Shown: piece after piece, positions 4,251 through 27,241 of the stretch
Layout of the letters: each line of letters opens with the position of its first letter
Position numbering within the stretch: the stretch's first letter is position 1
From: a virus
Length of the DNA stretch: 42,126 nucleotides
Strand: one strand, 5' to 3'
IMG/VR virus record: IMGVR_UViG_3300027712_000063
Span: 1 to 42,126 of that record
Made by a program: the position numbers and the translations under genes
Notes under the pieces: model-generated
Database searches by the model: none
Told to the model about the DNA's origin: nothing
What the model saw: only the letters and a program-made list of their open reading frames with translations

Positions 4251-5177
4251 ATGAATATTGTTGTTACTGGGCATTTAGGTTATATCGGTTCTGTCCTAAC
4301 CGCAAAGCTACGAAATCTTGGACATACTGTTGACGGTATTGATTTGAAAGACAGCCCATCTAATGATTATGATGGTATTCGTCGATTGATTAAGTCAGTT
4401 GATTATCCTATTGAAGCTATCGTTCATCTTGGTGCAGATAGTTTATTGGGTCCATCTGTCAAGAACCCATTAAGCTATTATGATAATAATGTCACTAAGA
4501 ATATCAAGATGCTACAGTCTCTTGTTGATCTAAAATGGGGAGGTAAATTTATTTTTGCCTCTTCTGCTGCTGTTTATGGAAATACTGAAGTTTCTCCTAT
4601 TCCAGAATATATCCCAAAGATGCCCATTAATCCTTATGGAAACACCAAGAGGATGATGGAAATGATTTTGGAAGATTGCTTTAATGCATATAATTTCAAG
4701 TCCACTTCGTTTAGGTTCTTCAATGTTTGTGGTGCGGATGAGGAAACTGGTATGGGTCAAGCTAGTGATCAGCCACACATCATTACTTCTATGTGTCGAG
4801 CAGATGCTGAAAACAAAAACTTTGTTATCAATGGCGATACATTTTTGACAGAAGATGGTACATGTCTTCGTGACTATATCCACGTAAATGATGTTTGCTC
4901 TGCTATTATTGAAGAACTAAATATCGATAGAGATGGTGCAACAAGATTTAATCTTTGTACTGGAACTCCAACTTCAAATCTCCAGCTTTTCAATACATTT
5001 AAGAAAATTACCGATACAACTATTGATGTTGAATTTGGTGATTATCGACCTGGAGACCCATCTATCCTAGTTGGCGATAACTTTGCATATTGTCGATCCA
5101 GTAACTGGGAACCAAAAGAAACACTAAACAGCATGATCCAAAGTGCTTGGAATCATTATCAGAAAGGTTTACGATGA
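4251..5177 (+). CDS. GalE-like NAD-dependent sugar-nucleotide epimerase (extended SDR)
   Basis: This 308-aa member of the extended short-chain dehydrogenase family most resembles UDP-glucose 4-epimerase. The NAD-binding glycine motif GHLGYIG is at residues 7-13, a serine-containing SSAAVYG segment at 104-110, and the catalytic Tyr129/Lys133 pair in YGNTK. The GalE-type segment TEDGTCLRDYIHVNDV (about 200-215) is well preserved. It probably interconverts nucleotide sugars for surface glycan or phage glycosylation; exact substrate specificity cannot be read from sequence. The ATG abuts the upstream stop and follows GAGG. The next gene overlaps by four bases (ATGA). GalE usually has about 330-340 residues, so this is a slightly short version. 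Confidence 0.9.
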   Translation: MNIVVTGHLGYIGSVLTAKLRNLGHTVDGIDLKDSPSNDYDGIRRLIKSVDYPIEAIVHLGADSLLGPSVKNPLSYYDNNVTKNIKMLQSLVDLKWGGKFIFASSAAVYGNTEVSPIPEYIPKMPINPYGNTKRMMEMILEDCFNAYNFKSTSFRFFNVCGADEETGMGQASDQPHIITSMCRADAENKNFVINGDTFLTEDGTCLRDYIHVNDVCSAIIEELNIDRDGATRFNLCTGTPTSNLQLFNTFKKITDTTIDVEFGDYRPGDPSILVGDNFAYCRSSNWEPKETLNSMIQSAWNHYQKGLR

Positions 5178-6190
5178 CTATTAATACAGCGTGGCAACGC
5201 AATGAATTGAATAAAAACTCTATGGGTGGATCGGAACAAATGGCAGAGGGTCTTATGGCTCGTCTTGATCCTGAACTAGCAAATAAGTTTCAAATTATTA
5301 CTAGCCGAGTTAGAGAACTAAAGGAAGACAAGATTCGTATCTATTGGCTACATGATCTTCCAGGAGACCCTGAGACGAAACATCTTAAAGATAAAAAGAG
5401 CCGTGATCGTTTTCATAAGATTGTATATTGTGGCAACTGGCAACAAAATGCGTTTCAGATGGTTCATGATATTCCGTTGGACAATCATTCAACTGTTATT
5501 GAAACTGCCATTACTCCGTTTCCCGAAATCACAAAGCCAACAGATGGTGAAATTCGTCTAGTTTATACTTCTACTCCTCAACGTGGACTTGAACTTTTGG
5601 TTCCTGTTTTTATTGAACTTTGTAAGAAGCATGATAATATTACTCTTGACGTGTTTTCATCATTTAAGATTTATGGGTGGGAAGATGCTGACAGGCAATA
5701 TGAACCACTATATGAAATGTGTCGCCAACACCCAAAGATTAACTATCATGGATATGCTCCAAATGAAGTTGTTCGTGAAACAGTTGAAAAGGCTCATATC
5801 TTTGCATATCCTTCCATTTGGATGGAATGTAATTCCCGTTCGTTGATTGAAGCTATGTCTGCTGGCTGTCTAGCCGTACACCCAAATTATGCAGGTCTTG
5901 CTGATACTGCTGGTGGATTGACTGCTATGTATCAATGGGATAGAAATCCTAATGTACATGCTAGTGTATTCTATAGCTTGTTAGATGAGGCTATCGGTAC
6001 AGTCTCCGATGAAAATCTTCAAGGATATTTGAGGTTTGTTAAGATGTATGCAGACCAAAGGTATAATTGGGGACGGATTGTTCAACAATGGACAAACTTA
6101 TTGACTGGACTTGCAGCACAATACGAAGGTAAAGATTTAAGTTTACCTGATGCTGGAAAAGAAATTATTACTTTTAATACTACGAGGTAA
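5174..6190 (+). CDS. GT4-type glycosyltransferase
   Basis: This 338-aa protein belongs to the GT-B fold, family 4 glycosyltransferases. The strongest evidence is the C-terminal EX7E motif (ECNSRSLIE) followed by AMSAGC, the nucleotide-sugar binding region, preceded by a typical INYHGYAPNEVV acceptor-loop/Rossmann segment. The N-terminal SMGGSEQMAEGL resembles the glycine-rich donor/acceptor loop of this family. It likely transfers a sugar, perhaps the product of the neighbouring enzymes, to a surface glycan or virion component. The start at 5174 (ATGA overlap with the epimerase stop, AGAAAGG ribosome site) is preferred over an in-frame upstream ATG at 5147. Confidence 0.87.
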   Translation: MTINTAWQRNELNKNSMGGSEQMAEGLMARLDPELANKFQIITSRVRELKEDKIRIYWLHDLPGDPETKHLKDKKSRDRFHKIVYCGNWQQNAFQMVHDIPLDNHSTVIETAITPFPEITKPTDGEIRLVYTSTPQRGLELLVPVFIELCKKHDNITLDVFSSFKIYGWEDADRQYEPLYEMCRQHPKINYHGYAPNEVVRETVEKAHIFAYPSIWMECNSRSLIEAMSAGCLAVHPNYAGLADTAGGLTAMYQWDRNPNVHASVFYSLLDEAIGTVSDENLQGYLRFVKMYADQRYNWGRIVQQWTNLLTGLAAQYEGKDLSLPDAGKEIITFNTTR

Positions 6191-6192
6191 TT

Positions 6193-7176
6193 ATGATTGT
6201 TGTTAAAACCCCCCTCCGAATTAGTTTCTTTGGAGGGGGAAGCGATGTCCCTGCAATATATGAACAAATTGGTGGAGCAGTTCTGTCTACTGCCATTGAT
6301 AAGTATATGCATATTGTCGTAAACCCAACACCAAACCAGCATCTTAAGCTTACATATTCTAAAGTAGAAGTTGTTGAGAATGCTAAAGACCTAGATCATG
6401 AAATTGCTCGTGAAATATTAAATCATTTTGGTATCAAATCAAATATTGAGATTGGTTCTTTTGCTGATGTCCCTACAGTCGGTACTGGACTTGGATCGTC
6501 ATCTACGTATGCAGTAGGTTTAATAACAGCTTTGTCTGCATATAAAAATATTCCAATGAACCGATATGATATTGCAGAGTTGGCTTGTTCTATAGAGATT
6601 GATAAATGTAAAAGTCCTATTGGAAAACAAGATCAATACGCAGCTTGTTTCGGTGGATTGAATGTTATCGAGTTCAATAAACACTTGGTTAATGTTAAGC
6701 CATTAAATGTTTCACAAAATACTATCGATGCCTTGAATGATAATTTAGTAATGTTTTATACTAACCGTACACGCAAAGCATCAGACATATTAAAAATACA
6801 AAATGATAGTAAGAACTATACCGATATGTATTTGAAGAATATGAATAGTATGATAGATCAAGTTTATGCGGGTAGAGATTTACTATACAAAAATCAACTT
6901 GATGAGTTTGGTATGTTGTTAAATGAAGCATGGCTCAAAAAGAAAGAACTATCATATGGTATCAGTGATCCAGAGTTAGATGGTCTTTATACATTTGCAT
7001 TGATGAATGGTGCTATTGGTGGTAAGATTTTGGGTGCAGGTGGTGGTGGATATTTTCTTTTCTATTGTCCAAAACAAGATCAAAAGAAGCTAAAGAAAGA
7101 ACTTGAGAAGAAGGGACTAAAAGAGTTTCCCTTTAAATTTGTTGATAAAGGATCACACATTGTACATCAGTCCTAG
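6193..7176 (+). CDS. hddA: HddA-like GHMP kinase (D-glycero-D-manno-heptose 7-phosphate kinase)
   Basis: This 327-aa GHMP-family sugar kinase begins with the N-terminal signature KTPLRISFFGGGSDVP, typical of heptose 7-phosphate kinases of the HddA type. The ATP-binding motif PTVGTGLGSSS is at residues 94-104 and the C-terminal motif GGKILGAGGGGYF is present. HddA phosphorylates D-glycero-D-manno-heptose 7-phosphate at C1 in the GDP-heptose pathway. The adjacent GmhA-like isomerase makes that very substrate, which supports the assignment. The ATG at 6193 follows a GAGG ribosome site, two bases after the glycosyltransferase stop. A related fucose or galactose kinase activity is a less likely alternative. 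Confidence 0.85.
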   Translation: MIVVKTPLRISFFGGGSDVPAIYEQIGGAVLSTAIDKYMHIVVNPTPNQHLKLTYSKVEVVENAKDLDHEIAREILNHFGIKSNIEIGSFADVPTVGTGLGSSSTYAVGLITALSAYKNIPMNRYDIAELACSIEIDKCKSPIGKQDQYAACFGGLNVIEFNKHLVNVKPLNVSQNTIDALNDNLVMFYTNRTRKASDILKIQNDSKNYTDMYLKNMNSMIDQVYAGRDLLYKNQLDEFGMLLNEAWLKKKELSYGISDPELDGLYTFALMNGAIGGKILGAGGGGYFLFYCPKQDQKKLKKELEKKGLKEFPFKFVDKGSHIVHQS

Positions 7177-7750
7177 AGAATATGCAGATAGAATTCACAG
7201 TGCATTATTCGACAATCGTTTACACAAGAGCATAGAAGATGCTGCAAACTTAATTGAAGCAACTATCAAGAGTGATGGTATCATTTATGTTTGTGGTAAT
7301 GGCGGTTCTGCTGCTATTGCAAATCACTTGGTATGTGACTGTCAGAAGGGTATTTCAACTAATACCAACTTGATGCCAAGGATTGTTTCTTTGGCTTCTA
7401 ATGTTCCTATCATCACAGCTATTGCTAATGATATTGGATACGAAGATATATTTTCACATCAACTAAAAAACTTCATTCGTCCTAATGATATTTTGTTGAC
7501 TATATCTTCAAGTGGAAACTCTCCAAACATCAAGAATGCTATTGTTCTTGCACAGGAAAAAGAAAACAAAGTTATTTCCTTCTGTGGATTTGGTGGAGGA
7601 TATTCAAAAAAGGCAGATGTTTGTGTCCATGTTCAAGAAGACAATTATGGTATTGTAGAAGATTGTCATCAGTCTGTTATGCACATGATTGCTCAGAACA
7701 TAAGACACAGAAATCTGGTTAATGATGGCTCTAAGATTTATCCGTTTTAG
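7160..7750 (+). CDS. gmhA: GmhA-like phosphoheptose isomerase (SIS domain)
   Basis: This SIS-domain protein of about 196 aa resembles sedoheptulose 7-phosphate isomerase GmhA. The signature GNGGSAAIANH, the phosphate-binding SSSGNSPNI and the C-terminal VEDCHQSVMHMI helix (GmhA has VEDVH at this place) are visible. It would convert sedoheptulose 7-phosphate to D-glycero-D-manno-heptose 7-phosphate. There is no upstream ATG: the best start is a TTG at 7160 with AAAGGA seven bases ahead; another in-frame TTG lies at 7139. It overlaps hddA by 17 bases. Its stop TAG overlaps the gp13 stop on the opposite strand. DiaA-like DNA replication proteins share the fold but are less likely beside hddA. 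Confidence 0.87.
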   Translation: MYISPREYADRIHSALFDNRLHKSIEDAANLIEATIKSDGIIYVCGNGGSAAIANHLVCDCQKGISTNTNLMPRIVSLASNVPIITAIANDIGYEDIFSHQLKNFIRPNDILLTISSSGNSPNIKNAIVLAQEKENKVISFCGFGGGYSKKADVCVHVQEDNYGIVEDCHQSVMHMIAQNIRHRNLVNDGSKIYPF

Positions 7751-14059: not shown

Positions 14060-14329
14060 TTAATTAGAAATGGATGCGGCTATAGCCAACGGATCAATAT
14101 TTCCTTGAACTCCAATATAAGACTGCAAATCTGAATGGACAGACTTTTCTTTTTCCCATTGATCTTGTGGGGCAAAAAGATTAATGTGTACTTCAATTTC
14201 AACTGTTCTATCAGGAACAGGAATAGTAACAGTAGCAGTATTTAAAGAAGAATCTTCAGGGGAATACTCAACAACCATTTTTAGAGTTTGAGTATCAACA
14301 CTTTTTATTGTATAGTTGTATCTTTCCAT
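14060..14329 (-). CDS. Small FAPQDxWEK-family protein, copy 1 (89 aa)
   Basis: This 89-aa protein of unknown function is a paralogue of the 111-aa product at 16320-16655. Both begin with a short Met-Glu-x-Tyr segment, contain MVVEYSP near residue 20 and share FAPQD-Q/K-WEK at about residues 51-60. The DNA around that motif is also nearly identical (TCTTGTGGGGCAAA in both). Such small acidic proteins often sit beside fibre genes in T4-like phages, but chaperone or virion roles are unproven. The ATG at 14329 follows AGAGGA and is preceded by two late-promoter-like motifs. Confidence 0.75.
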   Translation of the reverse strand: MERYNYTIKSVDTQTLKMVVEYSPEDSSLNTATVTIPVPDRTVEIEVHINLFAPQDQWEKEKSVHSDLQSYIGVQGNIDPLAIAASISN

Positions 14330-14399: not shown

Positions 14400-14948
14400 T
14401 TAATTATAGCAAAGTGCTAATGTAAATCGATGTTGGGTAGCAATACTCGATTGTGGTCTTATTGTGTGTGGTATATCAGCGTCAAATACAATAACTCTTC
14501 CTGGTGTATATGGTGTAGAGAATTGAATGTTCTTTAAATTTTCAGAATAAAATTGAGTTTCTCCGTGCCAACCTTCTCTCCAATCTAAATTGGCATAGTA
14601 TAAAACTACTTTCTTTTCTGGATGAGTATGTACGTAGTTTACGTCAGAGGAAACAGATAGATTTAAAATACTCTTTTCTAACGTGAGACCTTCTGTTAAT
14701 TCTTTTACAGCACTGTTTTCTAGAAAAGGTAATATTCCAAGATTATTTAAATCATCACTAGAATATGTTGAATGTAAAAAGAAATCATTAGCCTTTCTTT
14801 CTGGTACAATAGAGTCGCTCCATCCTATTTTAAATAAAGAATTTCTACAAAAATCATATGCAGCAATCCTAAAAGACAAAGGAAATACTCCATCAAGTAC
14901 GTCTATTTGTTTGTTGTTTTCTAAAAAATATTTTTCATGTTCGATCAT
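14400..14948 (-). CDS. 2OG-Fe(II) oxygenase-like protein with HxH in place of HxD
   Basis: This 182-aa protein has the double-stranded beta-helix layout of 2-oxoglutarate/Fe(II) dioxygenases. The core reads YVHTHPEKKVVLYYANLDW, then GWHGETQFY, then PGRVIVFDADIPHTIRPQ and HRFTLALCY. Candidate iron and 2OG ligands are His107, His161 and Arg174. The usual Asp of HxD is replaced by His109 (HTH), which may be a family trait or a loss of normal iron chemistry. Its substrate is unknown: virion proteins, lipids and nucleotides are possible. It lies directly after the Coq4-like gene. The ATG at 14948 follows GAAGAGAAAC. Confidence 0.78.
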   Translation of the reverse strand: MIEHEKYFLENNKQIDVLDGVFPLSFRIAAYDFCRNSLFKIGWSDSIVPERKANDFFLHSTYSSDDLNNLGILPFLENSAVKELTEGLTLEKSILNLSVSSDVNYVHTHPEKKVVLYYANLDWREGWHGETQFYSENLKNIQFSTPYTPGRVIVFDADIPHTIRPQSSIATQHRFTLALCYN

Positions 14949-14966: not shown

Positions 14967-15770
14967 TTAACAACAAACTTTCTTATAATATACATTATCT
15001 TTGATGTTATATCTTTTTTTAATTTCATCAACATCATCTTCTAAATGTTGAACCCAATCAACCATAAAGAGATTTGTATTGACTTGCTTTCCTATAAGAT
15101 ATGCTTCTTTAGCTATAAAAAATCCTTTTAGATTTAAACTTCTAATAGTTTCTGCTATTATACCAAAAAAAGATACCAATCTTACCGCAGGTATTTTTAA
15201 ATGATTGAAGTGGAAAACATGTATACCAAGTTCTCCTTTAGCATCAGTTTTATACCCCATTATAGAGTGCATAAGATCATGTTGTAATCCAAATTGTTCA
15301 GTAAATCTCATAGATGTTTTTCCATCATCCCGAACTTGTTGTCTGGTATGATATTGGTAAAGATTTTTAATTAATATTCTTTTCTTTTTTTCTCTTGGTG
15401 TTCGATAAAATGTCTTTTTTAATATGTGCATATTTACATAGGTAGGGTCGTCCCACTTATATCCAACTTCATTTTTTAAAAAATTGTAATAAGTTTTTCC
15501 TAACGTGTTATCAGGCAAGGACTTTATATATTCTACGTTAGCTAACTTTTTTTCTAATATACAAGAATTTTCAAAAAGCAATCGTCTTCCTGTAAAATCG
15601 TTAAGCATTTCTTTTTTAAATATCATACCAGTTGGCCACAAGGTTCCAGTATATAACATCAAAGCATGTCTTGCCGTAGATGTTTTAGGGTATACAACAG
15701 AATAGTATAATCCTATCAAACCATCCCACCAAGCTAATAGTAGACCATAATATCCTTTAATAAAATTCAT
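14967..15770 (-). CDS. Coq4-family protein (ubiquinone biosynthesis-like)
   Basis: This 267-aa protein carries the diagnostic Coq4 motif HDxxH-x11-E exactly: His164, Asp165, His168 and Glu180 in a helix beginning FGLQHDLMHSIMGYKTD. A second family trait, LPDNTLGKTYYNFLKN (about residues 85-100), corresponds to the LPxxTxGxxYxxFL segment of Coq4 proteins. The length is in the family range. Coq4 binds a metal at this motif and acts in coenzyme Q biosynthesis, where it has been implicated in oxidative decarboxylation at C1 of the ring. The N-terminus is hydrophobic and Trp-rich (about residues 8-27), compatible with membrane contact. It sits between a cupin-like protein and an oxygenase. Ubiquinone synthesis is inference; another metal-dependent role on a phage substrate is possible. 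Confidence 0.82.
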   Translation of the reverse strand: MNFIKGYYGLLLAWWDGLIGLYYSVVYPKTSTARHALMLYTGTLWPTGMIFKKEMLNDFTGRRLLFENSCILEKKLANVEYIKSLPDNTLGKTYYNFLKNEVGYKWDDPTYVNMHILKKTFYRTPREKKKRILIKNLYQYHTRQQVRDDGKTSMRFTEQFGLQHDLMHSIMGYKTDAKGELGIHVFHFNHLKIPAVRLVSFFGIIAETIRSLNLKGFFIAKEAYLIGKQVNTNLFMVDWVQHLEDDVDEIKKRYNIKDNVYYKKVCC

Positions 15771-15774
15771 AATA

Positions 15775-16320
15775 TTATTTCCAAATTTTTAATACGTAAC
15801 TATCTTCCATAGCTTGTATAGTTACAGGAATATTGGCTTCAACATTTATCATATTTGTTTGAGATTTTTCAACACCATTTATTAATATCTTACCACTAGC
15901 AACAAAATAATACACATTGGTATTTTGTGCTTCTAGTGTATACTCTTCATTGGCATTTAAATTGATAAGAGACCTATTGTAGATTATTTTATTTTTAGGC
16001 ATCATACAAACTATAGAGGTGTTGTCTTCCAAAGAAGACATTCTATATCTACCTGACATTCTAGAAGAAGACAAGCCTTGACCTTTAGTGAAGATATAAT
16101 CATCTAGTTTGCTAGTTTGAACTTTTACACTTCCTTGAGTTACCAAGAATATACCAGGCTGAAAGTATAAAAATTCATTAGGAGAATCTGTATATTTTGG
16201 AACCCACTCAGGCACAGGACCATCAAACCAAGTAGTATCTTTAATGATAGTTCCGTAGATTACGTTGAATGCTGGAAATTCCGTATTTTGAAAATTAGCA
16301 TAAAGTATTGGGTCTGCCAT
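15775..16320 (-). CDS. Cupin-like beta-barrel protein, unknown function (181 aa)
   Basis: This 181-aa protein was not recognised at family level. The pattern of short beta-strands, with FQPGIFLVTQGSVKVQT in the first half and YYFVASGKILINGVEK plus a C-terminal DSYVLKIWK in the second, resembles two degenerate cupin-like halves. No clear metal-binding His cluster is visible, so enzymatic activity is uncertain. It could instead be a small virion decoration or sugar-binding protein. The ATG at 16320 overlaps the upstream stop (TAATG), indicating coupled translation, and the Coq4-like gene begins four bases after its stop. Confidence 0.5.
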   Translation of the reverse strand: MADPILYANFQNTEFPAFNVIYGTIIKDTTWFDGPVPEWVPKYTDSPNEFLYFQPGIFLVTQGSVKVQTSKLDDYIFTKGQGLSSSRMSGRYRMSSLEDNTSIVCMMPKNKIIYNRSLINLNANEEYTLEAQNTNVYYFVASGKILINGVEKSQTNMINVEANIPVTIQAMEDSYVLKIWK

Positions 16321-16655
16321 TATAATATTCCTGTATTTTCTTGTTCTACATTAAATGCATTTTCAGATGCTTTCATCATTTCGTAATAAATATTAACAGT
16401 ATTAATTGAAACATCTCCAGACACAACCTCTCCTGTTTGTCCTACCAATGAAGATAGATCACTAGGATTTTTTTGTTTTTCCCATTTATCTTGTGGGGCA
16501 AATCGATCTACATATTCAGATATATTATCAAAATCTTCTGGAGCAGTTATATTTAATGAAATCCTATATAATCCTTCTGTAGTTGGAGAATATTCTACAA
16601 CCATTTGATGATTTATAGGGTCTACACTTAGTATCTTATAGATGTAATTTTCCAT
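16320..16655 (-). CDS. Small FAPQDxWEK-family protein, copy 2 (111 aa)
   Basis: This is the longer paralogue of the 89-aa product at 14060-14329. Shared features are the start MENYIYKILSVD, the segment MVVEYSP, and RFAPQDKWEKQ at about residues 51-61. Beyond that point the C-terminus is unique and about 20 residues longer. The ATG at 16655 has a strong GAGGAAA ribosome site. Function is unknown. The two copies bracket the 2OG/Coq4-like/cupin-like group, which suggests a segmental duplication or module exchange. Confidence 0.75.
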   Translation of the reverse strand: MENYIYKILSVDPINHQMVVEYSPTTEGLYRISLNITAPEDFDNISEYVDRFAPQDKWEKQKNPSDLSSLVGQTGEVVSGDVSINTVNIYYEMMKASENAFNVEQENTGIL

Positions 16656-16689: not shown

Positions 16690-17295
16690 TTATTTAAATG
16701 CTGGTCCAGAAACCCATATAACTATTGTTTTTCTTATTCCAGAAGTTACTGGCGTTACTCTATGTAATCTAAAAGATGGAAATCCGCAAACTAATCCTCT
16801 AATTTTAGGAATAGAATCTGGAGAAGTTCCAGCTAGTATTTGTAATTCACCGCCAGTATATTGTGTAGAATCTGATAATTGTAAAACAATACTAAATTTT
16901 CTTGGAGAAATATCAGTTGGTCCACAATCTATATGATAATCATAGTGACCATTTTCTTCTCCATCATATACAGTATATTGAAAATCTTCAACAAAACCAT
17001 ATAAATCAAATTTATAAAACTGACTATTGAGTTTTCTAGTTATCCAAGCCATTCTATCATAAAACCAGCCAGTTTCTTCATTATTAACAATCCACGCTGT
17101 TTTCGACTTTCTTATTTTAGAAATATCTTCATCATTATTAGGATTTCCAACAGTAGCTTTATTTTGTTTAAGGTTTTCTTCACAGTATGCTTCTATAGTA
17201 TCAAGTTCTTTTTCAGTAAACCCATTTTCCCACGTAACGTAAGAATGGTGATCATCTATCGTAGGAGGCATTGGCGTAAAATTATATACAGACAT
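16690..17295 (-). CDS. 2OG-Fe(II) oxygenase, prolyl 4-hydroxylase-like (201 aa)
   Basis: This 201-aa protein has a complete P4H-type 2-oxoglutarate/Fe(II) active site. His121 and Asp123 in HYDYHIDCG supply HxD, GGEL follows at about 148-151, and His178 plus Arg188 in FRLHRVTPVTSGIRKTIVIW supply the distal His and the 2OG-binding Arg. Such enzymes hydroxylate protein side chains (Pro, Lys, Asp) or small molecules. The gene is downstream in the same tightly packed run as the collagen-like glycine-rich protein, which is an attractive but unproven substrate. The ATG at 17295 overlaps the upstream stop (TAATG). Confidence 0.9.
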   Translation of the reverse strand: MSVYNFTPMPPTIDDHHSYVTWENGFTEKELDTIEAYCEENLKQNKATVGNPNNDEDISKIRKSKTAWIVNNEETGWFYDRMAWITRKLNSQFYKFDLYGFVEDFQYTVYDGEENGHYDYHIDCGPTDISPRKFSIVLQLSDSTQYTGGELQILAGTSPDSIPKIRGLVCGFPSFRLHRVTPVTSGIRKTIVIWVSGPAFK

Positions 17296-18032
17296 TACTT
17301 TATCTTCTTGTGTAAATTATCTCTATAAAGAGATTCATGTACACTATTTCTAATTGTTCTTACTTTTCCTGTAGCAGAAATTTCTTTGTCGTTAAATTCT
17401 CTGCTTCTATGAGATGTCAACAAATTATCTTTTTTAATAGGAATGACTTGAACTAATGGAGTACCAGCTTCAATCAATCCAGAAAAATTTGGTTGATTGA
17501 ATGTGAAGGGAAAGTTTACATACTCTTCACCATAGTATGGATAATCTACTGTTCCTGACATACATGTAAATCTAGGATCATACCTATTCAAAGGAGGCAA
17601 GAAAATTAATGAATATTCTGGTGGAGTTTTAATCATCCAATAATTTAAAAATTTCATTGGAGGCTTAGGGTCCAAAGGATTTGGAGATTTTTCAGATGAA
17701 ATTTGTTCTTTGTTATGATTTTCTACCATTGGCTTATAGAATTTAGATTCATATGTTAAACCAGAACACTCCTCATTTACTACAAATTGAACGTCTGCTG
17801 CCAACGGAATTATATATCCCAGCAGCATAGAATCTAAGAATGGCATACATCTTTTGATAGTGCCTGTTTGGAAACCTTTATTACCAGTTTTTGGAGGCAA
17901 TGCCTTAAACCAATCTGGGATATGTTTTCCTGAAGGATATGGAGCAGGTATTACTCCAAAATCTTCTTTAGAACATAAAAATTCAATTTCATCATTTTTA
18001 AACACACTTTTAAACATATTATATTTTCTCAC
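17295..18032 (-). CDS. DUF6065-like protein (245 aa)
   Basis: This 245-aa soluble protein resembles the DUF6065 group found in aquatic phages and some bacteria. Recognisable parts are IPAPYPSGKHIPDWFKALPP near the N-terminus and KRCMPFLDSMLLGYIIPLAA at about residues 60-79, followed by WMIKTPPEYSLIFLPPLNR and GTPLVQVIPIKKD. Its biochemical role is not known. The assigned start is a GTG at 18032 overlapping the upstream stop (TAGTG); an in-frame ATG at 18017 is an equally reasonable start. It is followed by the P4H-like oxygenase with a TAATG overlap, and such genes often travel with oxygenases in phage genomes. Confidence 0.65.
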   Translation of the reverse strand: MRKYNMFKSVFKNDEIEFLCSKEDFGVIPAPYPSGKHIPDWFKALPPKTGNKGFQTGTIKRCMPFLDSMLLGYIIPLAADVQFVVNEECSGLTYESKFYKPMVENHNKEQISSEKSPNPLDPKPPMKFLNYWMIKTPPEYSLIFLPPLNRYDPRFTCMSGTVDYPYYGEEYVNFPFTFNQPNFSGLIEAGTPLVQVIPIKKDNLLTSHRSREFNDKEISATGKVRTIRNSVHESLYRDNLHKKIK

Positions 18033-18229
18033 TAATTTTGGTTATTGCCAGCCTTATAATATATATTGCCTTCATTTACCTCTTGTATGCAACGATCTAC
18101 TTCTTTTTTTCCTCGAAGTATATGATCATCGTGCAAATTCAATTGGGTATTATTATTTATCCAATCTCTCTGGTACTGTGGTAATTTGTCGAAACATGCC
18201 ATAACACATCGCAGTCTGACATAATCCAT
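18032..18229 (-). CDS. Small 65-aa protein of unknown function
   Basis: This 65-aa protein begins MDYVRLRCVMACFDKLPQYQ and is basic/polar towards its C-terminus; it was not recognised. The ATG at 18229 shares its A with the stop of the glycine-rich gene (TAATG), and its own stop overlaps the GTG start of the next gene. A longer TTG-initiated form from 18238 is possible but less likely. Tight overlap on both sides argues that it is real and co-translated. Confidence 0.6.
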   Translation of the reverse strand: MDYVRLRCVMACFDKLPQYQRDWINNNTQLNLHDDHILRGKKEVDRCIQEVNEGNIYYKAGNNQN

Positions 18230-19692
18230 TAAGACCAAGCAGCCGTAATTTGTCCTGCTGATCCTCCAGAGCCTATAGTAACTGCAATTATTTGATACGG
18301 ACGAACATCTACTGAAACGTTATTTGTTGGAGCAGTGCCACCAGTGCCTCCTGCTCCTCCAGGACCACCCGCTGCGCCAGGATTACCTGCTCCGCCAGCA
18401 TTAGCTACTGATGGGTTTCCTGCGCCACCAGGACCTCCCGCTGTACCAGCGTTTCCTGCGCCGCCAGGATTAGCTACTGAAGGATTAGCGGCAGTTGCTC
18501 CTGTACCATTTGCGCCAATATTACCCGCTGCACCCGTGTTACCAGCACCACCCGCAGTCGCTGCTGTAGTTGTACCGTTAGTAGAATTATAAAATCCTTT
18601 TACTCCAGCATTTCCTCCATTTCCACTATATGTAGTGCCAGCGGTTCCATTGATTCCGTCAACTGTATTGTTGAAACCTCCGCCACCGCCTCCGCCACCG
18701 CCGCCTTGTCCGCCAGCATTTCCAGCAGTCAATCCTACATTACCTGCTGATCCGCCTGTAGCGTTTGTTGCAGTACCAGCAGCGCCTCCAGTACCATTTG
18801 TACCAGTGGTTCCAGCAGTACCGCCATTACCATTTGTTGCAGTACCAGCAGCGCCACCGCCGCCATTATTGCCAATAGTTCCTGCGTTGCCTCCAGTTCC
18901 CCCTGTTCCTCCAGAAAAATTGGATGCTCCAAATACAGAAGCATTACCAGCATTACCAGCAGGACCAGCAGTTCCAACGGCAGCACCTGTACCTGCATTT
19001 CCTACGTTTCCATTAGCAGCACCTGTTCCTGGATTTCCAACAGTTCCATCAGCAGCGCCTGTTCCAGCATTTCCAGCAGTTCCAGAAGCAGCGCCAGTTC
19101 CTGGAGTACCATCAGTACCTGGTGTGGCAGCGCCTCCAGCATTTCCTGCTGTACCCGATCCGCCGCCACCACCGCCGCCACCATAAGAGGTTGGTCCTTT
19201 AAAGCTAAAAACACCGCCAGCACCTCCTGCGCCTCCTCCTGGACTTCCTCCTGCTCCACCTGTTCCTCCTCCAGCGTTTCCTTGACCTGCTGATCCTCCT
19301 GGATTACCAGCCGTGCCACCTGGAACGGCGGCACTAGTATATCCAGGACCAGCTCCGCCACCATTGCCTCCAGCACCACCAGTACCAGCATTGCCTCTAA
19401 CGCCATTATTACCAGCAGTTCCAGCATTACCGACAGTTCCTGGATTACCAGCGTTACCAGTACTTCTATTTCCAGGATTGCCAGAACCACCAATATTTCC
19501 AGCAGTTCCAGGATTTCCCGATCCACCAATATTTCCAGCAGTTCCTGGATTACCAGCAGTTCCTGCATTTCCTTGACCGCCTCTACCAGTTACAGATAAT
19601 CTATAAATGCCAGCAGGAACTGTAAAATTTCCTGAAGCATTTATTACTGTTGATCCTGGAGCGGGTTTAGATATAAAGTGGCCAAGAGGCAT
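18229..19692 (-). CDS. Glycine-rich collagen-like adhesin / fibre protein (487 aa)
   Basis: This is an extreme-composition protein: residues of about 36-460 are dominated by Gly, Ala, Asn and Thr in GXY-like triplets such as GNPGTAGNIGGS, with runs of seven or more Gly. The N-terminal VPAGIYRLSVTGRGGQG is the usual entry into phage glycine-rich domains, and the C-terminal PYQIIAVTIGSGGSAG is the usual exit. Such sequences fold as polyglycine type II helices in T4-superfamily gp38 adhesins, or as collagen-like triple helices. A receptor-binding tip or spacer role is likely. Many Pro residues sit immediately before Gly (NPG), the site used by prolyl hydroxylases. The ATG at 19692 follows AGGAAG. 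Confidence 0.82.
   Translation of the reverse strand: MPLGHFISKPAPGSTVINASGNFTVPAGIYRLSVTGRGGQGNAGTAGNPGTAGNIGGSGNPGTAGNIGGSGNPGNRSTGNAGNPGTVGNAGTAGNNGVRGNAGTGGAGGNGGGAGPGYTSAAVPGGTAGNPGGSAGQGNAGGGTGGAGGSPGGGAGGAGGVFSFKGPTSYGGGGGGGGSGTAGNAGGAATPGTDGTPGTGAASGTAGNAGTGAADGTVGNPGTGAANGNVGNAGTGAAVGTAGPAGNAGNASVFGASNFSGGTGGTGGNAGTIGNNGGGGAAGTATNGNGGTAGTTGTNGTGGAAGTATNATGGSAGNVGLTAGNAGGQGGGGGGGGGGFNNTVDGINGTAGTTYSGNGGNAGVKGFYNSTNGTTTAATAGGAGNTGAAGNIGANGTGATAANPSVANPGGAGNAGTAGGPGGAGNPSVANAGGAGNPGAAGGPGGAGGTGGTAPTNNVSVDVRPYQIIAVTIGSGGSAGQITAAWS
18330..19600 (-). repeat. Collagen-like / polyglycine coding repeats
   Basis: A long run of short DNA repeats encodes GNAGTAGNPG-like triplets and polyglycine tracts (densest around 18675-18715 and 19150-19185). 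The stretch is visibly richer in G and C than its neighbours because of glycine and alanine codons. It is a likely site of slippage and length variation. Confidence 0.8.
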
Positions 19693-20053: not shown

Positions 20054-23000
20054 TTAACCAGTATTCGATAAAGCAACGCCAGCAAAATAATTTGTACCGC
20101 CATCGACCGTAAAGAATGATAATATATCAGTTTTATTTGCAGTAGTAGATAGAGTTGGTGTAACTGAATTTGGCCATTTTACGGATGCAGGGAAAGTTAT
20201 AACTCTAGAGCCAGTAGCATCCTGTTTAGCAAGAATTGTAAGCGTATAAGCATTTCCTGTTGCTGGAGGATTACTAAATGTTAACGTAATGGATGCATTT
20301 GCCAATGTTAGATTGTATATGTTTGTTGTAGACAAATCTAAAGTTTGAGTAGTTGTAGATATACTTAAAGTATTAACAAATTCTTTGTATGCTTTAAGTT
20401 TAGGACTTTCAACAACGTTATTTGACATAACAATATTAGCACTATGTGTCAACACGCCTGTAAGAGTAAATGCTCCAGAAGTATTTACCGTAGTAGAGGG
20501 TAATTGCGCTGCTGGTAATGTTCCAGTTGCAATATTGGTAGCGTTGGTATAATATGCACCGTTTTGACTGTTCAATAGAGCGGCATTAGCAGCGTTGGTA
20601 GCATTTGTAGCTGTACCATTAATTCCTAATCCGTTAGTAGAATTAGCAAATCCTAATGCTGGTAACTGTGCTGCTGGTAAAGTACCAGTTGCAATGTTTG
20701 TTGCATTGGTATAATATGCACCGTTTTGGCTGTTTAATAGAGCGGCATTAGCAGCATTTGTTGCAGTGGCTGCAAGACCACTAATTCCTAATCCGTTAGT
20801 AGAATTAGCAAATCCTAATGCTGGTAATTGTGTTTCTGGTAATGTTCCAGTTGCAATGTTTGTTGCATTGGTATAGAATGCTGGAAGGTTTCCGCCCAAC
20901 TGAGCAGCATTAGTTGCAGTAGCAGCAAGACCACTAATAGCAAGACCATTGGTAGCATTAGCAAATCCTAATGCTGGTAACTGGGCTGCTGGTAATGTTC
21001 CAGTTGCAATGTTTGTTGCATTTGTATAGTATGCGCCGTTTTGGCTGTTTAATAATGCGGCATTTGCAGCGTTAGTAGCATTTGTAGCTGTACCGTTGAT
21101 TCCTAATCCATTAGTTGAGTTTGCAAATGATAATGCTGGTAACTGGGCTGCTGGTAAAGTACCAGTTGCAATGTTTGTAGCGTTGGTATAATAAGACGCA
21201 GCTTGTCCGTTAAGATTTGTAGCATTACTAGAAGTACCACTATAAACAGTACTATTGACTGTTGCTGTTGCTGTAGTATTAACAAACGATATAGTTGTTG
21301 AGTTGGCAATTACGTTTGACGTTGTAGTATTACCAACCGATAGAACTGCTGTGGTGTTACCAACTAATACAACATTAGCAGCATATGTATGAACGCCAGT
21401 TAATGTAAATGTACCAGAGGTGTTTACTGTAGTAGAAGGTAGCTGGGCTGCTGGTAAAGTACCAGCCGTAATGTTTGTTGCATTAGTATAGTATGCTGGG
21501 AGGTTTCCGCCCAACTGAGCAGCATCAGTTGCAGTGGCCGCAAGACCACTAATACCTAATCCGTTAGTAGAGTTTGCGAAGGCTAATGCTGGCAATCGGG
21601 CTGCTGGTAAAGTACCAGTTGCAATGTTTGTTGCATTGGTATAATAAGCCGCAGCCTGTCCATTAAGATTTGTAGCATTACTAGAAGTACCAGAATAAAC
21701 AGTAGAGTTAACTGTTGCAGTTGCAGTAGCATTAACAAATGATATAGTTGTTGAGTTGGCAATTACGTTTGACGTTGTAGTATTACCAACCGATAGAACT
21801 GCTGTGGTGTTACCAACTAATACAACATTAGCAGCTATTGTATATCCGCCAGCCGTAACAAAGGCTGTCGCATTACTATATGCTGTGGCAGCTTTGGAAG
21901 TTGCATCAGAAGCAGCAACCGAAACAGCATTAGTATATGCGGTTGCGGCATTAGAAGCAGCATTTCCTTGAACAACAGCTAGAGATAATCCGCCAAAATT
22001 GGTTGAGTTATTTGATGTTCCAGAGAATGCTGTAGAGTTGATAGTGCCAGTAGCGCCAGTACCAGTAATGGTAATTGTTGGAGTAACAGTGTTGGCAGTT
22101 ATTGCAGTATTGACTGTTGCGTTTCCCACAGCGAAAGAAGTAGCAATATTGATTGATGCTGGAAGATATACAGTTCCCAAGGTTCCAGCAACAATATTTG
22201 TAGCGTTGGTATAGTATGAAGGAAGGTTTCCGCCTAACTGAGCAGAAGTTGTTGCACTAGCCGCAAGACCACTAAATGCTGTTGGAGTGAGTGTTGTAAA
22301 GATACTAGCATTACCAATAGTAATTGTGGATGAGTTTGATGTCACACCATTAGAAGTGGCGTTGATAGTACTGATATTAAATCCAGTTGCGACATTGATA
22401 GTAGCAGGAAGTCTTGCAGTTACTAATGTACCGCTGCTGATATTGTCGGCGTTGGTATAGTAAGCACCATTCTGTCCATTTAATAGTGTAGCATTAGCAG
22501 AAGTTCCGCTGAATGAAGTAGCATTGATAGTTGAAGAACCACCAGTACCATTAATAGTAATAGTTCCAGTGACAGAGTTGGAAGTTATTGTAGTATTGAC
22601 AGTAGCATTACCAACTGATACACTTCCATTTGCAGTAATAGCAGCAGCCAAAATTGTTCTACTGGAAGTTACGTCCCTTGAACTGACATCTCCACTAATA
22701 ACAGAAATACTACCAACATTTACAGTTAACGAAGCGCCATTTAGTGTAAATGCACTATTAACAGTAAGAGTATTCGATATCATTACTGTATTTGCAAAAG
22801 TAATTGTATTTGAAAACGTTGCTTGTGTTGTAGCAAAAATTGGTGTTGCGCCAAGAGCAGTAGTAACATCAGCAGAGGTTAAAGTTACTGCACCAGATCG
22901 AGTATTAAAGGTTGTTACACCAGTGACAGCAGCGGCAATATTAGCGGCAGCAGTTACCCGTCCTTTGGCATCAACTGTTACTGATGCATAGTGAGACGCA

Positions 23001-26000
23001 TTACCATATGTTCCCGCCCCAACACCAGTTGAGGCAAGAGTAAGAGGAACAGCGACATCCGCAGAGCCATCGAAAGGAATAGTGCCTGTAGCATCTCCAG
23101 AAACGGCAATGCCTCTAGCAGTAGCAAGAATTGTTGCCTTACTTGCTGTGCCAGTAACAGCACCAGTTAGAGGACCACTAAATGCAGCAGCATAAATTGT
23201 TCCTGTTGCGTTGGCAGAACCAAGGATTTGAACATTTGCTGTTGATTGTAATGTAATGTTTGCAGAGTTTGCAATAATGCTTCCAGTTGTGGTATTGCCA
23301 TTAACAGCTAGTTGATAGTTAATAGCTCCGTTTCCACCAATTTGAGCGGTGTTGGCAATAACAATTGTGTTTGAGTTTAAAGCAGCAGAAAGAGCGCCAG
23401 GATTTGAAGCAACCCACTTTGAACTAGATGAGTTATATGCTAATACATAGCCATCTGTTGGTGAAGGAACGTTTAAGTTTGAAAGATCGTTTAATGCAAT
23501 AGTAACAAAGCTAGCTACGTTAGAAGCAGAAATTTTCAAGAAGGTACTTGGAGTAGAGCCAGTAAAGAATATGTTAGCTATAGCAGGAAGAGTTGCAGTA
23601 TTAGCTACTGTTAATGTAGTTGAGTTTAAAGAAGCAACGTTAACAGAAGCTAAGTTCGCTAATCCAGTAGTGTTTAATGTAGCAGTATTGACCGAGCCAG
23701 TGACAACTACATTGTTTGCGATGCTAACAAGACCAGCAATGTTTGTTGCGCCAGCAATATTGGCTGAAGCTAAGTTCGCTAGTCCTGTTGTGTTTAATGT
23801 AGCAGTATTGACCGAGCCAGAAACAACCAAGTTGTTTGAAACAGTAGTTAATCCACTAAATGTTGCAGCAGGAGAAACAATAAAATTATTCCCACCAATA
23901 TTAACGTTGGCGGTAGTTCCATTAGAAATAATTCCAATTGCTGTAGTTGTAGCATTAGTTGAAAGAGTTATGCTTGGTGTAGTTGCTACTATGTTAGCAT
24001 TAAACGTTGTGATACCATTATGGACAGTTGATGGAGTAATGAATAAATTATTCCCACCAATAGTTGTATTTGTTGTAGTATTATTGCCAACAATCCCAAT
24101 GATACTGGCTGTTGCGTTGGTAGAAAGAGTAAGACCAAGACCAGTTACTGAAACATTGTTTGTGATTGTAGTAATACCAGAAATATTTGTTGCTCCAGTA
24201 ATATTGACTGAAGCTAAGTTCGCTAGTCCTGTTGTGTTTAATGTAGCAGTATTGACCGAGCCAGAAACAACTAGGTTGTTTGAAACTGTTGTAAGACCAG
24301 CAAGATTTGTAGCACCAATAATGTTAGCTGATGCTAAGTTCGCTAATCCTGTTGTATTGATAGTTGCAGTATTAGTTGATCCAGTGACAACTACATTGTT
24401 TGCGATGCTAACAAGACCAGCAAGGTTTGTAGCGCCAGAAACGTTGGCTGATGTAAGATTAGCTAATCCTGTGGTGTTTAATGTAGCAGTATTAGTTGAT
24501 CCAGAAACAACTAGATTGTTTGAAACTGTTGTTAATCCGCTAAATGTAGTGGCAGGAGTAACAGAAAAATTGTTTCCGCCAATGGTTGTATTTGTTGTAG
24601 TATTATTGCCAACGATAGTAATAACATTGGCAGTAGCATTAGCTGAAAATGCTATTCCTAAACCTGTTACTGTAACGTTTCCACTAATACCAACAGTATT
24701 TGCAATAGTAACAAGCCCATTAATATTTGTTGCACCATTAAGATTAGTAGTACCAACAACGTTAGCTGATGCAAGATTAGCTAGTCCTGTTGTATTAATA
24801 GTGGCTGTATTGACAGAACCAGTTAATACGATGTTGTTTGCGATGCTAACAAGACCAGCAATATTGGTTGCGCCAACAACGTTAGCCGATGCAAGATTAG
24901 CTAGTCCAGTAGTGTTTAATGTAGCAGTATTAACTGATCCAGTGACAATCAAGTTGTTTGAAACTGTTGTAAGACCATTATGAACAGTTGGTGGAGTAAT
25001 GAATAAATTGCTTCCGCCAATGGTTGTGTTTGTTGTGGTGTTATTACCAACAATAGTAATAACATTAGCAGTGGCATTGGCAGAAAAATTGATACCTAAT
25101 CCAGTTACATTAGTATTTCCTGTAATGCCAACAGTATTTGCAATAGTAACAAGCCCAGCAAGGTTTGTAGTACCAACAACGTTAGCCGATGCAAGATTAG
25201 CTAGTCCTGTTGTGTTTAATGTAGCAGTGTTAACTGATCCAGTGACAACCAAGTTGTTGGCAACACTAACAAGACCAGCAATATTTGTTGCGCCAACAAT
25301 GTTAGCAGAAGCTAAGTTCGCTAATCCTGTTGTGTTTAGTGTGGCAGTATTGACTGATCCAGTGACAACCAAGTTATTTGAAACAGTAACAAGACCAGCA
25401 AGATTTGTAGCACCAATAATGTTAGCCGATGCAAGATTAGCTAGTCCTGTTGTGTTTAATGTAGCAGTATTGACCGAGCCAGAAACAACTAGGTTGTTTG
25501 AAACTGTTGTAAGACCAGCAAGATTTGTAGCACCAATAATGTTAGCTGATGCTAAGTTCGCTAATCCTGTTGTATTGATAGTTGCAGTATTAACTGATCC
25601 AGTAACAACCAAGTTATTTGAAACTGTTATGAGACCAGCAATATTTGTTGCGCCATTAAGATTAGTAGTACCAACAACGTTAGCCGATGCAAGATTAGCT
25701 AGTCCTGTGGTGTTTAATGTAGCAGTATTAACTGATCCAGTGACAACTACGTTATTCGCAACGCTAATGAGACCAGCAATGTTTGTTGCACCAGCAATAT
25801 TGGCTGAAGCTAAGTTCGCTAGTCCTGTGGTGTTTAATGTAGCAGTATTAACTGATCCAGTGACAACCAAGTTGTTTGAAACTGTTGTAAGACCATTGTG
25901 TACAGTTGATGGAGTAATAAATAAATTATTACCGCCAATAGTTGTATTTGTGGTAGTATTGTTGCCGACAATAGTAATAACATTAGCAGTGGCATTGGCA

Positions 26001-27241
26001 GAAAAATTAATACCCAATCCAGTTACATTAGTATTTCCTGTAATGTTAACAGTATTTGCAATAGTAACAAGACCAGCAATATTTGTAGCACCAACGATGT
26101 TAGCAGAAGCTAAGTTCGCTAGTCCAGTAGTGTTTAATGTAGCAGTATTAACTGATCCAGTGACAACCAAGTTATTTGAAACTGTTGTAAGACCTAAAAG
26201 AGTTGCTGCACCAGATACACCCATTGTTGACAATAGATTTGCGGCTCCACCAACTCCAAGTGTTGAAACTGTGTTTGCTGCTCCTGTAATATTAACAGTG
26301 TTTGAGAATGTAGCAGCACCAGTAATACCGACAGTGTTTGAGAAGGTAGCAGCGCCAGTATGTGAACTATTTCCAGCAATAGCTAGATTAGCACCAACTG
26401 CAAGAGACGCTACGACATTAGCCGAAGCAAGATTGGCAAGACCAGCAGTAGTTAATGTGCTAGAAAGAGTAACAGCACCAATAACATTTGCAGTACTTCC
26501 AAATCGAACTGCCCCAGAAATATTAGCAGTTCCAGTTACGGCTAGTGTAGCGTCTGGAGCAGTATTAGCAATACCAACATTACCAGCAGATGTAATACGC
26601 ATACGTTCGTTGGCGGCTAATGTGCCACCAGTAAAGAAGTTTAGATATGCAGAAGAATTTGCAGTACCAACAGACATATTACTGTTACCAGCATAGATAT
26701 ATCCATCATTAGGACCATTAATTGTCCATGCGGTATTTGACCACGTAGAACTGTTGATACCCATATCAACATAAACAAGTTGTGATGCTATTGAACCAAC
26801 ATCATTATAAACAACAAAGTCAGCAGATGCATGTTGCCCAGTATTTGCATTCAATAGAGCAATCTGCATATAGTTATTAATAGAAGCTTGGTTCCATTGT
26901 GAGGAAAGAGAAGTGTTTAAATATCCAAGTTGATTATATTGACTTGTGTTTCCAACAGTAAGAATAGAGCTATTTGTAACGGCAACATTACTATTAATTG
27001 TAAGAACACCAAATGTTGTTGTGTTGCCTCCACGCAAATAATCTCCAGCAATCAGAGTGTTTGCAGAAAAGAAACCATTTACATAAGCATTACCTGTAGT
27101 CGTACCGCCATTGATGGTGGTATCTACAGTTACTACTGTTGTACCCATATCGTACATTACAGTATTGAACTTGGAAATCCAAGAAGCAAAAGTATCGTAA
27201 GTTGGACTTACATTTGATGATAAGTAATAAACTTTTGCCAT
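20054..27241 (-). CDS. Giant repetitive tail fibre (2395 aa)
   Basis: This very long fibre protein is built from repeats. The N-terminal region (about residues 1-220) is unique, starts MAKVYYLSSNVSPTYDTFAS and probably attaches to the baseplate. Residues of about 350-1210 contain 14 copies of a module of roughly 40 residues with the core NTATLNTTGLANLASAN, interspersed with four copies of an ANVITIVGNNTTTNTTIGG-type module. The C-terminal half has nine copies of a YYTNATNIATGTLPAAQLP type unit. The tip (last 110 residues) holds TITFPASVKWP-like and DGGTNYFAGVALS sequence typical of fibre ends. Trimeric beta-helical architecture and host binding are inferred. The start has an AGGAA ribosome site. 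Confidence 0.88.
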   Translation of the reverse strand: MAKVYYLSSNVSPTYDTFASWISKFNTVMYDMGTTVVTVDTTINGGTTTGNAYVNGFFSANTLIAGDYLRGGNTTTFGVLTINSNVAVTNSSILTVGNTSQYNQLGYLNTSLSSQWNQASINNYMQIALLNANTGQHASADFVVYNDVGSIASQLVYVDMGINSSTWSNTAWTINGPNDGYIYAGNSNMSVGTANSSAYLNFFTGGTLAANERMRITSAGNVGIANTAPDATLAVTGTANISGAVRFGSTANVIGAVTLSSTLTTAGLANLASANVVASLAVGANLAIAGNSSHTGAATFSNTVGITGAATFSNTVNITGAANTVSTLGVGGAANLLSTMGVSGAATLLGLTTVSNNLVVTGSVNTATLNTTGLANLASANIVGATNIAGLVTIANTVNITGNTNVTGLGINFSANATANVITIVGNNTTTNTTIGGNNLFITPSTVHNGLTTVSNNLVVTGSVNTATLNTTGLANLASANIAGATNIAGLISVANNVVVTGSVNTATLNTTGLANLASANVVGTTNLNGATNIAGLITVSNNLVVTGSVNTATINTTGLANLASANIIGATNLAGLTTVSNNLVVSGSVNTATLNTTGLANLASANIIGATNLAGLVTVSNNLVVTGSVNTATLNTTGLANLASANIVGATNIAGLVSVANNLVVTGSVNTATLNTTGLANLASANVVGTTNLAGLVTIANTVGITGNTNVTGLGINFSANATANVITIVGNNTTTNTTIGGSNLFITPPTVHNGLTTVSNNLIVTGSVNTATLNTTGLANLASANVVGATNIAGLVSIANNIVLTGSVNTATINTTGLANLASANVVGTTNLNGATNINGLVTIANTVGISGNVTVTGLGIAFSANATANVITIVGNNTTTNTTIGGNNFSVTPATTFSGLTTVSNNLVVSGSTNTATLNTTGLANLTSANVSGATNLAGLVSIANNVVVTGSTNTATINTTGLANLASANIIGATNLAGLTTVSNNLVVSGSVNTATLNTTGLANLASVNITGATNISGITTITNNVSVTGLGLTLSTNATASIIGIVGNNTTTNTTIGGNNLFITPSTVHNGITTFNANIVATTPSITLSTNATTTAIGIISNGTTANVNIGGNNFIVSPAATFSGLTTVSNNLVVSGSVNTATLNTTGLANLASANIAGATNIAGLVSIANNVVVTGSVNTATLNTTGLANLASVNVASLNSTTLTVANTATLPAIANIFFTGSTPSTFLKISASNVASFVTIALNDLSNLNVPSPTDGYVLAYNSSSSKWVASNPGALSAALNSNTIVIANTAQIGGNGAINYQLAVNGNTTTGSIIANSANITLQSTANVQILGSANATGTIYAAAFSGPLTGAVTGTASKATILATARGIAVSGDATGTIPFDGSADVAVPLTLASTGVGAGTYGNASHYASVTVDAKGRVTAAANIAAAVTGVTTFNTRSGAVTLTSADVTTALGATPIFATTQATFSNTITFANTVMISNTLTVNSAFTLNGASLTVNVGSISVISGDVSSRDVTSSRTILAAAITANGSVSVGNATVNTTITSNSVTGTITINGTGGSSTINATSFSGTSANATLLNGQNGAYYTNADNISSGTLVTARLPATINVATGFNISTINATSNGVTSNSSTITIGNASIFTTLTPTAFSGLAASATTSAQLGGNLPSYYTNATNIVAGTLGTVYLPASINIATSFAVGNATVNTAITANTVTPTITITGTGATGTINSTAFSGTSNNSTNFGGLSLAVVQGNAASNAATAYTNAVSVAASDATSKAATAYSNATAFVTAGGYTIAANVVLVGNTTAVLSVGNTTTSNVIANSTTISFVNATATATVNSTVYSGTSSNATNLNGQAAAYYTNATNIATGTLPAARLPALAFANSTNGLGISGLAATATDAAQLGGNLPAYYTNATNITAGTLPAAQLPSTTVNTSGTFTLTGVHTYAANVVLVGNTTAVLSVGNTTTSNVIANSTTISFVNTTATATVNSTVYSGTSSNATNLNGQAASYYTNATNIATGTLPAAQLPALSFANSTNGLGINGTATNATNAANAALLNSQNGAYYTNATNIATGTLPAAQLPALGFANATNGLAISGLAATATNAAQLGGNLPAFYTNATNIATGTLPETQLPALGFANSTNGLGISGLAATATNAANAALLNSQNGAYYTNATNIATGTLPAAQLPALGFANSTNGLGINGTATNATNAANAALLNSQNGAYYTNATNIATGTLPAAQLPSTTVNTSGAFTLTGVLTHSANIVMSNNVVESPKLKAYKEFVNTLSISTTTQTLDLSTTNIYNLTLANASITLTFSNPPATGNAYTLTILAKQDATGSRVITFPASVKWPNSVTPTLSTTANKTDILSFFTVDGGTNYFAGVALSNTG
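20500..22480 (-). repeat. Fibre C-terminal repeats, nine YTNATNI units
   Basis: Nine copies encode units related to YYTNATNIATGTLPAAQLP. The last five are close to identical at DNA level, alternating with NSQNGA or GGNLPA lead-ins. The layout suggests recent tandem duplication within the fibre gene. Confidence 0.75.
23630..26190 (-). repeat. Fibre shaft repeats, fourteen ~120-bp units
   Basis: Fourteen copies of a unit with the core NTTGLANLASAN recur about every 120 bp or multiples of it. On the plus strand they are seen as GCTAAGTTCGCTAGTCCTG or GCAAGATTAGCTAGTCCTG variants. The two alternative sub-types alternate, implying duplication followed by shuffling. Confidence 0.85.

Follow-up and report, generated by a model that had tools for sequence, protein, structure and literature searches.

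A Coq4-family metalloprotein paired with a cupin-like protein in tail-fibre gene cassettes of uncultivated phages

Human COQ4, a member of the ubiquinone-linked Coq4 family (PF05019), has been reported to act as a C1 oxidative decarboxylase of the quinone ring (PMC11495197), and the crystal of the Nostoc family member Alr8543 contains bound magnesium together with a ligand for which geranylgeranyl monophosphate was modelled at first and oleic acid later (PMC9774615). Oxidative chemistry and the binding of a hydrophobic ligand are thus both within reach of the Coq4 fold. The literature searched has nothing relevant on Coq4 in phages or viral metagenomes, in agreement with an earlier note on the DNA described here, which reported a Coq4 homologue in a phage tail-fibre locus and knew of no established phage role for it.

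The stretch analysed (the window) is the 42,126-nt viral record IMGVR_UViG_3300027712_000063, positions 1 to 42,126. It is a fragment of a T4-like myovirus, encoding terminase subunits, a tail sheath stabiliser, a head closure protein, a baseplate wedge and tail fibre; its terminase is nearest to those of cyanophages, and its baseplate protein is nearest to those of phages of alphaproteobacteria. The features discussed here are collected in Table 1.

The Coq4 protein of the window matches the Pfam profile PF05019 with an E-value of 8.5e-21 and 74.7 bits, against a gathering threshold of 22.9, the match falling into two stretches because about 30 extra residues separate LGxxY and HDxxH. A sequence search of the PDB matches it to a Nostoc Coq4 (3msq, 1.5e-6). 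The metal ligands H164, D165, H168 and E180 constitute an exact HDxxH-x11-E motif, and the LPDNTLGKTYYNFL segment lies at about residues 85–98; the earlier note had pointed out both the motif and the segment. Besides the insert of about 30 residues, the protein has an extra N-terminal helix, no clear N-terminal transmembrane anchor (the best 19-residue hydropathy there is 1.18), and no match in PHROGs. An AlphaFold2 model, based on an alignment of 40 viral and cellular sequences with cellular Coq4s included, has a mean pLDDT of 80.9, with about 94 around the metal site and 51–57 in the insert. The comparison with solved structures, which the note had put forward as a check, returned only chains of 3msq and 6e12 from Foldseek at E ≤ 0.001 (E 9e-6 to 3e-5, TMt 0.72–0.77). 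HDxxH-x11-E is invariant in the 40 aligned sequences, although most of the viral ones were found by that motif, so this is partly circular and is not counted as evidence. The homology that the note had claimed thus stands, and we have almost no doubt that the window protein is a genuine Coq4-family metalloprotein.

Table 1. Features of the window, with the evidence for each assignment
Feature	Position	Strand	Basis
Opposite-strand island: epimerase, glycosyltransferase, two PHROG proteins without assigned function	4251..7750	plus	
Epimerase and glycosyltransferase genes of this island	4251..6190	plus	
Second copy of small F20 protein	14060..14329	minus	BLAST family of 16320–16655
Probable 2OG oxygenase-like protein, directly downstream of Coq4	14400..14948	minus	NF052475, PF13640, both below cut-off
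Coq4-family protein, 267 aa, ATG start	14967..15770	minus	PF05019; PDB sequence match; fold match
Cupin-like protein, divergent F3 member	15775..16320	minus	PF17954, 23.9 bits; iterated HMM
Small F20 protein, 111 aa, in the cassette position of the small F19-type protein	16320..16655	minus	Family common to L223 and window 14060–14329
2OG-Fe(II) oxygenase	16690..17295	minus	PF13640, 2.3e-11; phrog_61, 3.5e-27
phrog_7084 protein, function not assigned, same gene run	17295..18032	minus	7.9e-53
Gly-rich collagen-like repeat protein, 487 aa, probable fibre or adhesin	18229..19692	minus	GNxGTAGN-type repeats in translation
Large tail-fibre protein, 2395 aa, upstream end of run	20054..27241	minus	phrog_9017 tail fiber protein, 2.3e-19 at C-terminus

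The placement of the gene in a tail-fibre locus is confirmed by the large tail-fibre protein at the upstream end of the run. Neighbours described previously as two 2OG-oxygenase-like genes and a cupin-like gene fare unequally: the oxygenase upstream is solid, and the cupin-like protein lies narrowly above the PF17954 cut-off of 22.9 bits, whereas the second oxygenase-like protein falls under the curated cut-off of NF052475 (FlmC family, 3.3e-16) and under that of PF13640 (0.0016). The cupin-like gene is directly upstream of Coq4, with 4 nt to the Coq4 start. The two F20 copies flank the cupin–Coq4 pair, one on each side, which suggests a duplicated unit. The collagen-like protein has no match in Pfam and, being encoded near the 2OG oxygenase, is a possible hydroxylation substrate.

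Similar gene arrangements recur elsewhere, and the largest class among the viral Coq4 clusters listed is a tail-fibre cassette, window included. Its typical order is F2 (a tail fibre by PHROGs), F1, sometimes a 2OG oxygenase, a small protein, the cupin-like F3, and Coq4. F3 lies within two genes of Coq4 in 27 of 66 viral clusters (among the matches listed, and counting the window), and F2 or F1 is found within five genes in 24 of these 27 F3-bearing clusters, again among the matches listed. The commonest gap from F3 to Coq4 is −4 nt, and most of 50 pairs have gaps of at most 10 nt. Among the matches listed, the remaining Coq4 clusters comprise seven beside a gp17 terminase or gp18 sheath gene, ten with F41 or a glycosyltransferase-like gene as neighbour, and 22 in other settings; the last include a T4-like group with a different partner, in which Coq4 is a few genes behind a tail-fibre gene. 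The nearest relative of the window protein among the matches listed (L107/L223) has 47% identity over 196 residues, and the L223 locus repeats the window's order of small protein, cupin and Coq4 and also contains an F1 gene. The window has no F1 gene in its cassette—the collagen-like protein and the 2395-aa tail-fibre protein are upstream instead—and its cupin-like protein enters the F3 family only via iterated profiles; since the order is shared with L223, we regard the window as a divergent member of the class.

Because all of these loci had been picked by Coq4, IMG/VR was also searched with an F1 motif, F1 being used as independent bait since F3 alignments are too divergent for scanning and a single F3 recovered near copies only. 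Among the 48 F1-chosen cassettes with at least four downstream genes, Coq4 is present in all five that have F3 and in none of the 43 that do not; after removal of F1s more than 70% alike the counts are 3/3 and 0/39 (Fisher p 8.7e-5). Small as these numbers are, they show that F3 co-occurs with Coq4 and that only a minority of F1 cassettes contain the two. Although none of the six Coq4 matches of this sample was selected by the metal-site motif, all six retain the four ligands (H, D, H, E). An oxygenase-like gene is nearby in 18 of the 48 cassettes. In the tail-fibre class, the tail-fibre operon ends with Coq4 and its partner, the cupin-like F3; in the window that partner is a divergent F3.

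When IMG/VR was scanned with one sequence at a time, neither the window protein nor a Nostoc Coq4 gave a match, as exact peptide seeds do not reach relatives this distant. Relatives did emerge from a motif scan and from one guided by a profile: at least 114 viral Coq4 ORFs score at E ≤ 1e-10 with a profile of the window protein and bacterial Coq4s, in at least 65 clusters at 90% identity; a profile search of metagenomes had been proposed in the earlier note. Of 39 records checked with Pfam itself, 37 passed the PF05019 cut-off. Searching 50,697 deposited phage records by tblastn, at a pairwise sensitivity that very divergent copies could escape, gave no match for five phage Coq4s, the Nostoc Coq4 or two F3 cupins, and the F3–Coq4 pair was not found in PHROGs, in these deposited phages or in the papers searched. 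The Coq4 genes are a fairly widespread, previously undescribed branch in uncultivated phages.

To trace the ancestry of these genes, 38 viral Coq4 sequences were placed in a tree with 63 cellular ones, in which several of the tail-cassette or fibre-linked branches are long. A single origin of all viral Coq4s is rejected (AU p 0.0027), and the group linked to gp17/gp18 or glycosyltransferase genes nests beside Coq4s of Sphingomonas and Caulobacteraceae (SH-aLRT 99), so that, from the sequence comparisons, phages have likely acquired Coq4 at least twice. The tail-cassette and T4-like fibre-linked Coq4s could form a single clade (AU p 0.535, the likelihood being slightly higher when they are held together), a compatibility that falls short of proof. 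Values of dN/dS in viral Coq4 pairs are about 0.06–0.21, a sign of purifying selection, and the viral genes are therefore functional. Near the metal site, most cellular Coq4s have R159, R161, T171 and Q190 (window numbering), where the window has Q159, G161, M171 and H190 and so departs from the cellular signature. These residues are kept at 71–100% in the gp17/glycosyltransferase group vs 15–40% in the tail-cassette group, and the assignment of the window protein to a phage clade distinct from the quinone-making Coq4s is supported.

The other viral loci are varied. In T4-like phages such as L101 (9653–10360), and also L120, L118, L156 and L190, a separately acquired Coq4 that keeps most of the cellular signature lies between the gp17 terminase and the gp18 tail sheath genes. 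Large phages (L102; L235–L237) have a run of a glycosyltransferase-like gene, Coq4 and F41, with QueC-like and B12-type radical SAM genes in addition in L235, and a radical SAM/SPASM gene is directly upstream of Coq4 in L183 (1459–2280) and L199 (8013–8720). One viral record (L238; G038, 129.6 kb) has two Coq4-like genes in different contexts, and Kordiimonas genomes (L031, L023, L042) have two Coq4 genes close together.

We propose that a Coq4-fold metalloprotein has been recruited, with its cupin partner F3, for the modification or maturation of the tail fibre, a reading that rests on how constantly the two genes are paired, on their place in the fibre operon and on the oxygenases encoded nearby. 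The most likely target of the F3–Coq4 pair would be the tail fibre just after its synthesis, or the protein at its tip; the step could be an oxidative modification of residues that depends on metal and accompanies the 2OG oxygenases encoded nearby, or one of maturation. A tail-fibre-linked role of one kind or another is the best-supported reading and is probable for the window Coq4, its live rivals being a lipid-carrier, a chaperone and a quinone role; that this protein specifically modifies the fibre as an enzyme is a credible prospect that we put at slightly under even. Still more tentative, and rather doubtful, is the suggestion that in marine-type phages the Coq4 fold, paired with the cupin, serves as an enzyme that chemically modifies tail-fibre proteins, and hence an undescribed viral system of post-translational modification. 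Several observations count against fibre modification. Other phage Coq4s are located away from fibre genes; unrelated cargo genes can also accumulate where tail fibres are encoded; the window lacks F1, and its cupin is joined to F3 by iterated profiles only; and the F3 alignment contains no conserved metal-binding histidines, while the best Foldseek matches of an F3 model (pLDDT 90.8) are bicupins at E-values of 6e-5 to 9e-4 with TM-scores of only 0.25–0.4.

The Coq4 fold might instead bind an isoprenoid or other lipid and serve phage enzymes in modifying glycans or the envelope rather than the fibre protein. The ligands modelled in the Alr8543 crystal (PMC9774615), the glycosyltransferase-like and radical SAM genes adjoining phage Coq4s in other contexts, and the epimerase and glycosyltransferase genes of the window all speak for this, yet it is with tail-fibre genes and F3, and not with glycosyltransferases, that the main Coq4 class is associated, and we consider the lipid reading unlikely. 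The earlier note had offered reuse of the fold for a lipid or quinone-like ligand at the membrane as one of two suggestions; reuse is the better of the two, with the evidence favouring a tail-fibre module over a membrane ligand in particular.

Less probable again is a non-enzymatic function of F3 and Coq4, as a pair of fibre chaperones or as virion components in which the metal site is kept for folding. Fibre chaperones are encoded after fibre genes, a position that F3 and Coq4 resemble, and the missing histidines of F3 and the loss of residues around the Coq4 metal site, ligands excepted, also fit; against this, the four ligands are intact, including in the six Coq4 matches that were not chosen by motif.

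The other suggestion of the note, that the phage supports host quinone and respiratory metabolism, would make Coq4 an auxiliary metabolic gene acting in host ubiquinone synthesis at the C1 oxidative decarboxylation, with respiration supported during infection. Alphaproteobacteria generally use ubiquinone, and the affinity of the window baseplate protein to phages of these bacteria, the retained metal site and the activity reported for human COQ4 are in its favour; it is more plausible for the gp17/gp18- and glycosyltransferase-linked group, given its alphaproteobacterial nesting and the cellular signature that it mostly keeps. For the window's clade it is unlikely, and as an account of the phage Coq4 we hold it to be improbable, in view of the tail-fibre linkage and dedicated cupin partner, the lost signature residues and the 22 Coq4-bearing viral records in which COQ7 and UbiE gave no match and UbiA none above its cut-off, although an auxiliary gene needs no such companions and many of these records are fragments.

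The evidence as a whole suggests that the phage Coq4 is reused for processing or modifying host-binding fibres rather than for making quinones. In this undescribed viral branch of a ubiquinone-linked family, the genetic partner is constant and the gene is tied to the phage structure by which the host is chosen, and the family name alone is no ground for calling phage Coq4s respiratory auxiliary genes. If the pair does modify fibres, adsorption would be tuned by a new route, and what the Coq4 metal site does chemically beyond quinone synthesis could be tested in a simple setting.

Compared with the known Coq4/COQ4 family (PF05019; human and yeast Coq4, Nostoc Alr8543 in 6e12, and 3msq), the window protein has the same Pfam profile, helix-bundle fold and HDxxH-x11-E motif, but it is only about 20–26% identical to bacterial Coq4s, has the additional insert, has replaced the favoured R, R, T and Q near the metal site, and is encoded in a tail-fibre context with a cupin partner. 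The cyanobacterial Coq4 paralogues on plasmids offer a parallel for a Coq4 outside the classical ubiquinone setting—cyanobacteria are not known to make ubiquinone—but no F3, F1 or tail-fibre genes were found with these profiles around the bacterial Coq4 loci searched. F3 resembles the bicupins AerE, BacB, HutD and pirin in the Foldseek comparison, but at low TM-scores and with the metal histidines not conserved. Phage fibre regions also encode 2OG-Fe(II) oxygenases (phrog_61, phrog_81), which are likewise oxygenase-like neighbours of fibre genes but have a different fold.
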